A stretch of DNA of 34,052 nucleotides, taken from the IMG/VR virus record IMGVR_UViG_3300031521_000223, positions 1-34,052 of that record; one strand, written 5' to 3'. Below the pieces are notes generated by a model. That model was not told the DNA's origin. It saw nothing but the letters and a program-made list of their open reading frames with translations, and did not search any database. This stretch comes from a virus. This document shows, piece by piece, positions 30,388 to 33,525 of this stretch (positions are counted from its first letter, which is position 1; each line of letters begins with the position of its first letter). A program made the translations under genes and the position numbers.

Positions 30388-30732
30388 TTAGTACATATAG
30401 TAACAACCAATTTGAACTGGTTTTCTTGCAGTATAGAATATAGCTGATTTATTAATATCTTTGTGTATATCTTTAATTGAGTCTTTAAAAAACTTTTCAA
30501 CTCGTTTAACGTCTGAGTCTAAAGTAACCATAGTTAAACCTTTTATAACACCTTTTATTTCAGCAGACATATGATAAATATGTATACCGTTTGCATCAGT
30601 TCTTAAAATAGCATGCCTATCTTGATATTCGTAACCGTCTGTTTCTTGATGCCTATGTGTAAAAACAGTCTTATGGTTAAGATTATAAACGTACAAACTA
30701 TCTATTTGTGGTAAGTTTTTTACTCGGTTCAT
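30388..30732 (-). CDS. Protein of unknown function, 114 aa
   Basis: Starts MNRVKNLPQIDSLYVYNLNH after TAGGAGATATAAATT. Contains TVFTHRHQETDGYEYQDRHA and ILRTDANGIHIYHMSAEIKG, beta strands rich in His and Tyr, then a basic helix (VKRVEKFFKDSIKDIHKDIN) and YYMY at the end. No recognisable family. It overlaps the zinc-ribbon-like gene upstream and ends before the terminator. Histidine density might bind metal, but this is weak. Confidence 0.65.
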   Translation of the reverse strand: MNRVKNLPQIDSLYVYNLNHKTVFTHRHQETDGYEYQDRHAILRTDANGIHIYHMSAEIKGVIKGLTMVTLDSDVKRVEKFFKDSIKDIHKDINKSAIFYTARKPVQIGCYYMY

Positions 30733-30929
30733 AATTTATATCTCCTAATATTAATTTTATTATAAGGTTTTAATTCCATAGTACCACTACAATTAGGTGT
30801 ATGACATTCCCTAGGTTCACTAGCAAATATTATATTAATATCTTCACCTTTTTCGTATAAAAGTCCTTTAATTGAACCACAAACGTTGCATTTCATTAAT
30901 ATTGATTGTTTTTTACAAGGGCATGTCAT
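30729..30929 (-). CDS. Small zinc-binding-like protein, 66 aa
   Basis: MTCPCKKQSILMKCNVCGSI has C3, C5, C14 and C17, followed by ECHTPNCSGTM with C42 and C47. CxxC spacing in the second pair (KCNVCG) is typical of zinc ribbons. Alpha-beta tail is basic (LKPYNKINIRRYKL), so nucleic acid binding is plausible. Its ATG overlaps the stop of a remnant frame at 30926-31042. Confidence 0.65.
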   Translation of the reverse strand: MTCPCKKQSILMKCNVCGSIKGLLYEKGEDINIIFASEPRECHTPNCSGTMELKPYNKINIRRYKL

Positions 30930-31042
30930 TTTATAGTTCTAACTATTATATCTTTTTTCAATTCCTGCAACGTTTTATCGTACTCAAATCCTAAATTAAA
31001 TCTCTCAAGCTTTGATAGTTTACTCGTAGTAAATCTTTCTTT
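30926..31042 (-). pseudogene. 5'-truncated reading frame beside RNA 2
   Basis: A 38-codon frame KERFTTSKLSKLERFNLGFE... to TGA, with coding character (charged helix, EYDKTLQELKKDIIVRTIK) and ATGA coupling to the next gene, but preceded by TAA and with no ATG, GTG or early TTG. The missing 5' end is where the closing stem of RNA 2 lies (31056), so insertion of the RNA element may have removed the start. Confidence 0.45.
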
Positions 31043-31049
31043 TTAAATA

Positions 31050-31650
31050 ATAATTAATTAAGTGTATGGTGCGATAAACAAGGTGACGGACTTCCCCAAT
31101 AGTGGCTCGTTCTTATGCCTTTCGGCGGGAGCAATCTGTCCTAGCGCCCTGTAAGTCGGTAAAGGCGGCCAATCGAGCTTCAATGATTCACAATTATTTC
31201 ATGCTTCACTCTGCTCTAATCCGTTGTTCAACTTACTTTTTATCCACTACGGTCTCACCTAGATACCCGTCATCTGCTAGTTACCCTCTGGGTTAGCTAA
31301 TTCCCATACTCTACCTAACATCGGGGCAGGCCTTGCTTGTATATTTACCGCACTACTACGCTTAATTGTTAATGTACTAATTCATACAGTACAGCTGGTA
31401 ATAAGCGACAATAGGCGTGTAGCGACGCCTCGTTTTACATCTTGTCCAATGCCTTACAGAGCGGTGTTAATCCGCACTGGGCAGCTCTGGTCTTGCCCGC
31501 ACCATCTGTAACTATAAGCTACAAAGTACCAAACAAGTTCTCGTTCTTATTACCATGTATACTGTATGAATTTTTAAAGTTCTTAGTTCAGTTGCCAGCG
31601 AGGTGAATCACTATGGACTTAATGGGCAACTTAGATTCCTATCAAGATTC
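31050..31650 (-). ncRNA. Structured non-coding RNA 2 (~600 nt)
   Basis: A gene-free, locally less AT-rich stretch behind an extended -10 promoter. Pairings read on the minus strand: AGTTGCC/GGCAACT (31631-31625 with 31596-31590); a long stem TTCATACAGTA + TGGTAATAAG with CTTATTACCA + TACTGTATGAA (outer arms 31570-31546 and 31405-31381); inside it GGGC/GCCC, GAG..GCGG/CCGC..CTC and GGCGT/ACGCC hairpins; and a closing stem 31367-31336 with 31082-31056. The last two elements are in the same order as in RNA 1. Size and multi-helix layout resemble phage-borne giant RNAs such as GOLLD or ROOL; I cannot confirm membership. Confidence 0.75.
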
Positions 31651-31657
31651 TGTAACT

Positions 31658-31666
31658 ATTATACCA
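31658..31666 (-). promoter_or_regulatory. Extended -10 promoter for RNA 2
   Basis: TGGTATAAT (31666-31658) on the minus strand, overlapping the last codons of the 70-residue gene. Transcription would begin about 31650, just before the first hairpin of RNA 2. Confidence 0.6.
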
Positions 31667-31871
31667 GTTTTTTACTAGTACGTTTACTGCGCAGTCCACC
31701 AATAGTTCCACATAAAATTGGATCAGCTTTACCATGTGCAAATTTATATCCAATCCCATTACGACCACCTTTAGCAGCTATAGTAGCCATATGATCATGT
31801 AGAGCGTCTACATTACCGTTAAAACGTTTTAGCATTGTTTCTTTCCACTTAGTATTTGATTTACCTGCCAT
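31659..31871 (-). CDS. Small basic Gly/Lys protein, 70 aa
   Basis: MAGKSNTKWKETMLKRFNGN, then AAKGGRNGIGYKFAHGKADP and GTIGGLRSKRTSKKLV. The KGGRNG and GxxGG-x-S-KR spacing is common in small phage proteins with two KGG-like turns; function unknown, possibly nucleic acid binding given the net positive charge. AGGATTAAATAATC precedes ATG 31871. Its stop overlaps the promoter of RNA 2. Confidence 0.65.
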   Translation of the reverse strand: MAGKSNTKWKETMLKRFNGNVDALHDHMATIAAKGGRNGIGYKFAHGKADPILCGTIGGLRSKRTSKKLV

Positions 31872-32126: not shown

Positions 32127-32507
32127 TTAATCGTTTAACCAGCTAACGGCTTGATGATCTTCTGGCTTAATTGTTAATTTGCCTATTTGCTCAAGTGGAC
32201 TGTTAAAACGTTCGTTCATAGAATGTTCGTAATCGCTATGTGCCTCTAATTCGTTCTTAAAAGCCTCTGTACGGGTCTGCATTGCTTTATCTGAATACTT
32301 TATCAGCCCAAAATTAAACAAGTCTCTGCGACGTCTAGATATGCTTTCAGGGTGCATCGCAAATCTAATGTTATCTTCTAGGCTTCGATGATCTGACCAA
32401 CCTTGCGTACGCCATACTGCTGCAATTAAATAGGCTTCGTCATTTTGTACTCCGTCATTTGCATTTATAACGTCTAGTACGAATTGTTGAGTTTTAGTTA
32501 GTTTCAT
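32127..32507 (-). CDS. Winged-helix-like DNA-binding protein (probable), 126 aa
   Basis: ATG 32507 overlaps the previous stop (ATGA) and has GGAG close upstream, so it is preferred to the GTG at 32516. MKLTKTQQFVLDVINANDGV and NEAYLIAAVWRTQGW-like helices, then HPESISRRRRDLFNFGLIKY, fit a winged helix: recognition helix ESISRRRRDLFNFGLI followed by a beta wing. Candidate phage regulator, possibly of the CATTAGCAT promoters, but that link is inference. Confidence 0.65.
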   Translation of the reverse strand: MKLTKTQQFVLDVINANDGVQNDEAYLIAAVWRTQGWSDHRSLEDNIRFAMHPESISRRRRDLFNFGLIKYSDKAMQTRTEAFKNELEAHSDYEHSMNERFNSPLEQIGKLTIKPEDHQAVSWLND

Positions 32508-32845
32508 TTGCTCCACCCCACTTTTATTACATTAACTGGTGCATTTTCGAATAATGGTTCAATTTCTTCTCTAGAATATCCCGCAATTCCTTGACCTATA
32601 GGGGTTAATAGAAATGTAAACTCTGGTAATAAAAATGCTACACGTTTGAATTGTTCTACATAGCGCTTAATTTGTTCTATACCGCCCATAGTTGGTATTG
32701 CATAAGATTGTCCTTGTAGACCCGAACCAACTCCCCAGACTGCACCAAACTGTTCTACGGCTTGTTTAGCGGCACCACCTGCATGTATTCCCCCTAGGTT
32801 AGAACCAAATACAAATATCTGATTTGTTTTTAAATTATCAATCAT
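32504..32845 (-). CDS. Macro-domain-like protein (A1S_2505-type), 113 aa
   Basis: Signature NQIFVFGSNLGGIHAGGAAK-QAVEQFGA and SYAIPTMGG, then FLLTPIGQGIAGYSREEIEP-LF, matching the phage-associated macro-like family (FVFGSN-x-x-G-x-H-x-G-GAA). Such folds bind or process ADP-ribose derivatives; the phage role is unknown, possibly defence against NAD-based immunity. It overlaps the alanine-repeat gene (ATGA) and the winged-helix-like gene. Confidence 0.82.
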   Translation of the reverse strand: MIDNLKTNQIFVFGSNLGGIHAGGAAKQAVEQFGAVWGVGSGLQGQSYAIPTMGGIEQIKRYVEQFKRVAFLLPEFTFLLTPIGQGIAGYSREEIEPLFENAPVNVIKVGWSK

Positions 32846-33525
32846 TTTATCTCTTCCATAACTTCAGTACGTCTTAAAACCCATTTATGAACTCTAATCT
32901 TAACTTTTAATAATGCTGCTGCGTCTGCGTCTGCTGCGTATGCTGCGTGTGCTGCTGCGTGTGCTGCGTATGCTGCGTGTGCTGCGTATGCTGCGTATGC
33001 TGCGTCTGCTGCGTGTGCTGCTGCGTATGCTGCGTATGCTGCGTATGCTGCGTATGCTGCGTCTGCTGCGTGTGCTGCTGCATATGCTGCGTATGCTGCG
33101 TATGCTGCGTCTGCATTTTCTTTAGTTTGATTTTTTAAATATTTATTAGCTGATTGAATAGCTAATCGTGGCCGTCTGTCGCCTGGATATTTATCTTCAA
33201 ATATTTTAATAACTAAGTTAGCTGAAAAAATTGCTAAAGCAACACTATCATTTTTTGTCCATTTGTAGGCTTTTATAATAGTCATATTTCTAGATGCGAA
33301 CTTATCATCGTCTACTACTAAATCACTAGCTTTAACTATTGCGAAAACATCACCTTTGACATACGACAATGCGTCAATAGATAGCATTGATGCGTGAAAA
33401 CCGTTATTACATAGTTCTATAATGCCTTTAACTGAATATTCTTTGCCGATTTCCCAAGTTTGATTACCATGTTCTGATTTTATTTTTCCATTTTTTAAAT
33501 TTAGAAACTTATAAGCTGTAATCAT
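32842..33525 (-). CDS. Alanine-repeat protein with DUF7666-like N-terminus, 227 aa
   Basis: N-terminal ~75 residues (AYKFLNLKNGKIKSEHGNQT ... IIELCNNGFHASMLSIDALS) resemble DUF7666-like domains, with the C-x-NGFHAS core. Then a region to ~135 is followed by ~67 residues of AAYAAYAAHAAD-type repeats (codons GCA-TAC/CAC/GAC-GCA), which should form a long alanine helix. The end is basic (ALLKVKIRVHKWVLRRTEVM). It follows the pentapeptide gene via TAATG. Both neighbours carry a CxNG(F/I)H motif followed or preceded by low-complexity repeats, suggesting paired function. Confidence 0.78.
   Translation of the reverse strand: MITAYKFLNLKNGKIKSEHGNQTWEIGKEYSVKGIIELCNNGFHASMLSIDALSYVKGDVFAIVKASDLVVDDDKFASRNMTIIKAYKWTKNDSVALAIFSANLVIKIFEDKYPGDRRPRLAIQSANKYLKNQTKENADAAYAAYAAYAAAHAADAAYAAYAAYAAYAAAHAADAAYAAYAAHAAYAAHAAAHAAYAADADAAALLKVKIRVHKWVLRRTEVMEEIK
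32916..33120. repeat. Alanine-codon tandem repeat
   Basis: Repeated GCAxACGCA units (9-12 bp) on the minus strand encoding AAYAAHAAD. Low complexity; the other frames look open and produce spurious Cys-, Leu- and Gln-rich frames. Confidence 0.9.

Follow-up and report, generated by a model that had tools for sequence, protein, structure and literature searches.

A phage-associated RNA family with a near-invariant three-way-junction core and exchangeable surroundings

The window, that is, the whole stretch of DNA analysed, is a virus record of 34,052 bases with its genes on the minus strand, and it raises the question of what is encoded in a tract of about 600 bases that genes leave free. The initial annotation had proposed a large structured RNA whose class it could not name. 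The fold of the locus (z -4.26), a strong covariation and the existence of homologues bear out this proposal; what is conserved, however, is not a single fold of ~600 nt but a three-way-junction module of ~130 nt with exchangeable surroundings.

A predicted large RNA between two minus-strand genes

The locus is bounded by the minus-strand genes 31659-31871 (70 aa) and 30729-30929 (66 aa). In the tract between them the minus strand contains no ORF of at least 50 aa and the plus strand holds small frames only, in agreement with the gene-free tract originally described. That this tract is less AT-rich was also confirmed, as the GC content rises from about 0.28 to 0.43-0.47 over positions 31000-31600. 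The minus strand at 31040-31650 was predicted to fold with -184.3 kcal/mol, a value that 0 of 20 shuffles equalled. Because the plus strand at the same locus also folds (z -3.74), fold energy alone cannot fix the strand; the RNA was assigned to the minus strand because the homologues and the flanking tRNAs indicate so. A search of the locus for intrinsic terminators gave none on the minus strand, and the 3' end of the RNA is therefore approximate. The features of the locus outside its conserved module are the following:

31045..31650, minus strand: predicted large noncoding RNA, whole locus (approximate 3' end; z -4.26; no minus-strand ORF of at least 50 aa)
31658..31666, minus strand: predicted extended -10 promoter-like element, TGGTATAAT (exact sequence match)
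31591..31630, minus strand: D1, 5' hairpin GUUGCC...CAUAGUGAUUCACC...GGCAAC (local blastn with the relative L180; alignment A3)
31546..31572, minus strand: 5' strand of the long slot helix, AAUUCAUACAGUAUACAUGGUAAUAAG (fold z -7.92)
31379..31405, minus strand: 3' strand of the long slot helix, CUUAUUACCAGCUGUACUGUAUGAAUU (fold z -7.92)
31055..31375, minus strand: D3, 3' domain with its own closing stem (fold z -2.93)

The extended -10 element noted earlier is present as an exact match and stands as a promoter predicted from sequence. It overlaps the last codons (..LV*) and the stop of the upstream gene 31659-31871, and in L180, a relative syntenic with the window phage, the sequence GTATAAT likewise covers the stop of the corresponding gene. 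The central arm (31379-31572) folds with -77.2 kcal/mol (z -7.92; 0 of 200 shuffles). Its long stem, annotated as 21 paired positions, does exist, although it consists of 15 pairs, a 2-nt internal loop and a further 9-10 pairs. The 3' domain (31050-31395) is weaker than the central arm (z -2.93; 1 of 100 shuffles), and a homologue of it was found in none of the collected loci, L180 included. A tmRNA-like tag was sought by eye in this domain and not found.

GOLLD, ROOL, OLE and HEARO had been named as candidate families, and none gave a credible match, even at E<10: the GOLLD covariance model (RF01998) matched neither at its gathering cut-off nor at E<=10, and the Rfam models of the other three matched neither the window nor the locus. 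The likeness to GOLLD and ROOL thus holds for the kind of RNA, large, phage-borne and often beside tRNA genes, and not for the family. At the Rfam gathering cut-offs, cmscan of the whole window returned no family, and the locus at E<=10 gave two chance eukaryotic matches only (snoRNA/lncRNA). Known self-cleaving ribozyme classes had no Rfam match in the window, the locus or the scanned homologous loci; no tRNA or tmRNA was detected in the window, and the window copy showed no cloverleaf with an anticodon arm. A plasmid collection contained no match to the RNA. The class is absent from Rfam 15 and turned up in none of the literature searches, which covered mainly open-access papers, so that a prior closed or unpublished description is possible.

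Some observations concern the neighbouring sequences. The sequence TGGTATAATAGTTA of the RNA has a near-repeat, AGATATAATAGTTA, at window positions 30940-30953 (minus strand), upstream of gene 30729-30929; nine such matches were counted vs 5.7 expected, so that the likeness is possibly due to chance. Gene 32842-33525 contains, at 32907-33125, a low-complexity alanine/tyrosine-rich coding repeat with high GC and a strong AT skew. No relative was found for the protein neighbour 30388-30732.

A three-way-junction core shared among phages

By blastn, the window module 31408-31545 has counterparts in phage JWDelta of Achromobacter (84%, E 7e-32), in phage Jgk1 of Escherichia (71%, E 1e-9) and in phages SR and NL of Acinetobacter (32-nt exact). 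The matches in JWDelta, SR and NL fall in gene-free tracts, and the Jgk1 record carries no annotation. A pattern of the most conserved strand recruited viral contigs and one MAG contig, and a looser one at least 120 viral stretches. The central module is present in over 100 phage and prophage loci, including Schitoviridae, Obolenskvirus, P22-like, epsilon15-like and jumbo phages. In CUS-3, IME10 and Huey the member lies between Q and the lysis genes; Aeromonas phage 62AhydR11PP, Hafnia phage Meifeng, Klebsiella phage phi1_146050 and Pseudomonas phage D6 are further annotated phages with a member. An enteric query had matches in 119 of 5426 complete E. coli genomes, mostly of the CUS-3-like form. 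With one DNA pattern, 13 of the 14 matches in viral contigs were true members, whereas among genome contigs 1 of 17 was. A related pattern matched once, by pattern only, in 1547 sampled bacterial genomes. The module family is phage-biased.

Several candidates were rejected. The pattern AAGATGTAAAACGAGG recruited chance protein-coding loci (L040-L049), which were discarded, as were L009, L023 and L025-L039 as chance matches; GATTCACC, an element conserved upstream of other members, proved not to be general when tested. Readings of the RNA as an antiterminator (put/nut) or a packaging RNA were dropped because the gene context varies too widely.

The core was shown to be a three-way junction of helices P1, P2 and P3 with near-invariant junction strands, which defines an uncatalogued phage-associated family. 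It reads UAAUCAG-P1-GAGA-P2-insert-P2'-nnUAAAACGAGGCG-loop-CGCCUAU-P1', the 3' side after the insert being also written as UAAAACGAGGCG..CGCCUAU-P1'. Alignment A2 comprises 44 members, with the window excluded. All 8 pairs of P1 are formed in 44 of 44 members, a proportion biased upward because members were kept by their P1 pairing score; double (compensatory) changes occur at 6 of the 8, and the bulged A is invariant. A fairer measure came from an anchor chosen regardless of pairing (n=91), with which 7.53 of 8 P1 pairs formed with the own strand vs 4.05+-0.14 with shuffled partners. P2 showed double changes at all 6 pairs, with 69% of its cells paired, and 5 of the 6 pairs of P3 never vary. 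Overall, 90.1% of the cells in A2 were paired, and doubly changed cells numbered 173 vs 58 in shuffles. Conserved pairs were found in homologous phages, with a covariation score of 0.478 vs 0.162+-0.012 for shuffled alignments (0 of 500) and at most 0.112 for slid pairings. As members were recruited by sequence anchors in the 3' strand of the core, the invariance of UAAAAC..GCCUAT is partly by construction.

In the window the parts of this module are:

31408..31545, minus strand: three-way-junction module common to other phages (BLAST matches to JWDelta, Jgk1 and SR/NL; model R1)
31541..31545, minus strand: 5' part of P1, A-ACGA; position 31545 corresponds to the invariant bulged A
31531..31537, minus strand: 5' strand of P2, CUUGUUU (A2; an alternative pairing to GGCAAG is possible)
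31448..31530, minus strand: P2 insert (cargo), of a type shared with JWDelta and L016 (alignment A4)
31441..31447, minus strand: 3' strand of P2, GGACAAG (A2 covariation; A4)
31413..31437, minus strand: UAAAACGAGGCG-loop-CGCCU, junction J2/3 and P3 hairpin (near-invariant columns in A2, 44 sequences)

Covariance model R1, trained without the window, matched window positions 31402-31459 (38.8 bits, E 1.4e-7), a score that rests on the 3' strand because the 5' part of the alignment was misplaced owing to the length of the insert. P1 of the window is formed by ACGA/UUGU with an internal loop where other members have the bulged A, the GA|GA entry to P2 is present, and the connector is UAAUAAG, not the canonical UAAUCAG. 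In the JWDelta-like type of insert, CUUGU is able to pair with either a GCAAG or an ACAAG copy; P2 may therefore be one of two alternatives.

Outer bodies, inserts and tRNA neighbours

To fold the homologues at minimum energy, the P2 insert was replaced by a tetraloop. In 60 of 90 homologues this gave a cloverleaf made of an acceptor, a D-like arm, P1 and a T-like arm, in which the core replaces the anticodon arm. Canonical T arms together with a tRNA-Leu-like D arm were seen in some (L138, L050, L087 and L102), canonical T loops read UUCGAAU in L138 and UUCAAAU in L014, and in the enteric form the D-loop sequence GCUGAU is complementary to the T-loop sequence AUCAGC. Such a body would suit an RNA directed at translation, one that mimics tRNA in binding to ribosomes or tRNA enzymes and so favours phage translation, and GOLLD has been reported to pull down ribosomes (PMC12286853). 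However, no anticodon is present, and the copies read encode no CCA at the end of the cloverleaf, which is therefore not an ordinary chargeable tRNA. As the window lacks the cloverleaf and the JWDelta fold is missing the T arm, this body is common and not universal. We consider a translational role unlikely.

In the window, the outer body consists of the 5' hairpin and a helix of 24-25 pairs in place of the cloverleaf. The window copy is thus an outlying member: it shares with the family the R1 match, the P1 helix and the entry to P2, retains the core with a JWDelta-type insert, and has its cloverleaf replaced. L180 was found through the protein 32504-32845 (59% identity). It keeps the D1 hairpin (77% over 71 nt, E 5e-5, by local blastn among the collected loci) and, at the same place, a shorter slot helix, UUAUGCAGA/UCUGCAUAA; it carries another insert and no D3, and its own fold is unremarkable (z -1.76). 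Since hairpin and helix are kept and the insert differs, an exchange in the slot appears, from this sequence comparison, to have taken place in the lineage of the window itself.

The P2 inserts of the 90 homologues fall into 28 clusters, and in 9 of the 90 ARAGORN identified a tRNA within the insert. The enteric chassis GUUGUGGUGAAUGCGCAGGCUGAUGCGC..GCCGGAGAUCAGCACCGGCCACCACAAC carries quite different inserts in the same slot in enterobacterial phages (L056-L060 and L062), and around it lies a scaffold several hundred bases long, parts of which match 258 phage records. By reading, four copies (L055, L066, L097 and L122) are circularly permuted.

Other RNA modules were seen in these loci. In L061:2720-3400, from epsilon15-like phages, a gene-free RNA scaffold of several hundred bases has at least two variable slots; L075, L106, L111 and L130 carry on the core a distinct P2 insert of 135-156 nt (..GGUGAGACCGCGUAACG..GGUGUUACC..), a second structured module; and in phage Jgk1 (L006:2780-3720) several odd, expanded tRNA-like sequences surround the core, beyond the five tRNAs of ARAGORN.

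Besides tRNAs, Rfam scanning of the homologous loci returned three single matches: a permuted tmRNA, a short stretch of tmRNA and an abiF RNA. The core itself had no match in these loci, other than being spanned by the permuted tmRNA match as intervening sequence, and ARAGORN reported no tRNA at the core in homologues. The permuted tmRNA is that of JWDelta (L005:2893-3277; RF04321, 95.8 bits), where the tag frame reads ANDDYIRLAA* by eye and differs from the tag given by ARAGORN. The short match (L012:9439-9519, minus strand) consists of only 81 bases that fit the tmRNA model over its full length (54.5 bits) within a tRNA cluster, and is a possible mini tmRNA-like RNA. The abiF RNA (RF03085, 40.6 bits) lies at L022:6426-6462 on the minus strand, after the core, a tRNA-Met and a tRNA-Thr in a phage RNA island; no AbiF-sized gene lies beside it, and it is a possible antitoxin decoy.

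A tRNA was present within 1.5 kb of 43 of the 112 members vs about 20 expected for random positions in the same loci. All of the nearby tRNAs (146 of 146) lie on the strand of the member, which fixes the strand and fits co-transcription. This strand-matched neighbourhood, the location of the JWDelta copy within the intervening sequence of a permuted tmRNA, between its 3' and 5' parts, and junction strands of the near-invariance typical of catalytic or protein-binding RNA would all suit a core that acts as a processing or splicing-like element of tRNA operons, either a ribozyme or a spacer recognised by an RNase, with inserts that are incidental. Yet 69 of the 112 members, the window among them, have no tRNA within 1.5 kb, no known ribozyme was matched in Rfam, and whole tRNAs residing within P2 would be cut from the core. 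This alternative seems to us improbable.

Possible role and comparison with known systems

The best reading, an inferred one to which we give an even chance, is that of a phage RNA scaffold that would display swappable RNA cargo. In such an RNA, the outer tRNA-like body or the long helix would give stable, processed ends, the invariant junction would set the geometry or bind one conserved partner, and the swappable P2 insert would be the effector, which in the infected cell would engage some factor of the host or of a defence, for instance by serving as a tRNA or RNA decoy. Synthesis of the RNA would accompany that of the other phage RNAs, typically within tRNA clusters.

That phages combine a platform that stays constant with a cargo that is hypervariable suggests conflict with host factors, and by analogy and from this hypervariability the cargo may possibly act as a decoy or against defence; the abiF RNA that shares an island with one member hints in this direction but is no test of it. 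A more specific version of the scaffold reading is a natural RNA display, in which an invariant junction on a tRNA-like body would present hypervariable decoy or inhibitor inserts against RNA-targeting defences of the host, and phages would swap these inserts among themselves as in an arms race; we put this forward as speculative.

The core could also belong to a structural assembly RNA that multimerises like the GOLLD or ROOL nanocages, for which the setting (phages and tRNA islands) and size are as reported (PMC12286853). Without a sequence or covariance match to either family, and with a small conserved unit in exchangeable surroundings that fits a fixed cage poorly, we find this the least credible of the readings.

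Together, these results describe a class widespread in phages whose core is near-invariant and whose members include nested tRNAs, circularly permuted copies and exchangeable cargo. As phages available in culture carry it (CUS-3, IME10, JWDelta of Achromobacter, and SR and NL of Acinetobacter), its function is testable at once.

Among the known systems, abiF motifs neutralise the AbiF toxin through RNA-protein binding (PMC12373285); an abiF RNA (RF03085) shares an RNA island with one member, whereas the core has no RF03085 match. GOLLD (RF01998) and ROOL are, like this RNA, large noncoding RNAs of phages and prophages often near tRNA islands, and the linker region of GOLLD can contain tRNAs (PMC12286853); unlike them, the present RNA gave no cmscan match and has a three-way-junction core in a tRNA-like body with exchangeable modules. 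The outer body of the relatives resembles tRNA (RF00005) in its 7-bp acceptor and its D and T arms, and differs from it in the module that takes the place of the anticodon arm and the absence of CCA in the copies read, the window having no cloverleaf at all. With permuted tmRNA (RF04321) the likeness is that one copy, in JWDelta, resides inside such a gene. In engineered tRNA and three-way-junction scaffolds, an RNA cargo is placed in the position of the tRNA anticodon arm or on the junction. The cargo of the phage RNA occupies a comparable position, with the difference that here the scaffold is apparently natural and phage-borne and its cargo diversified; if the scaffold reading is true, phages would have evolved the tRNA-scaffold trick of RNA engineers, and the family would offer a systematic source of phage RNA effectors.
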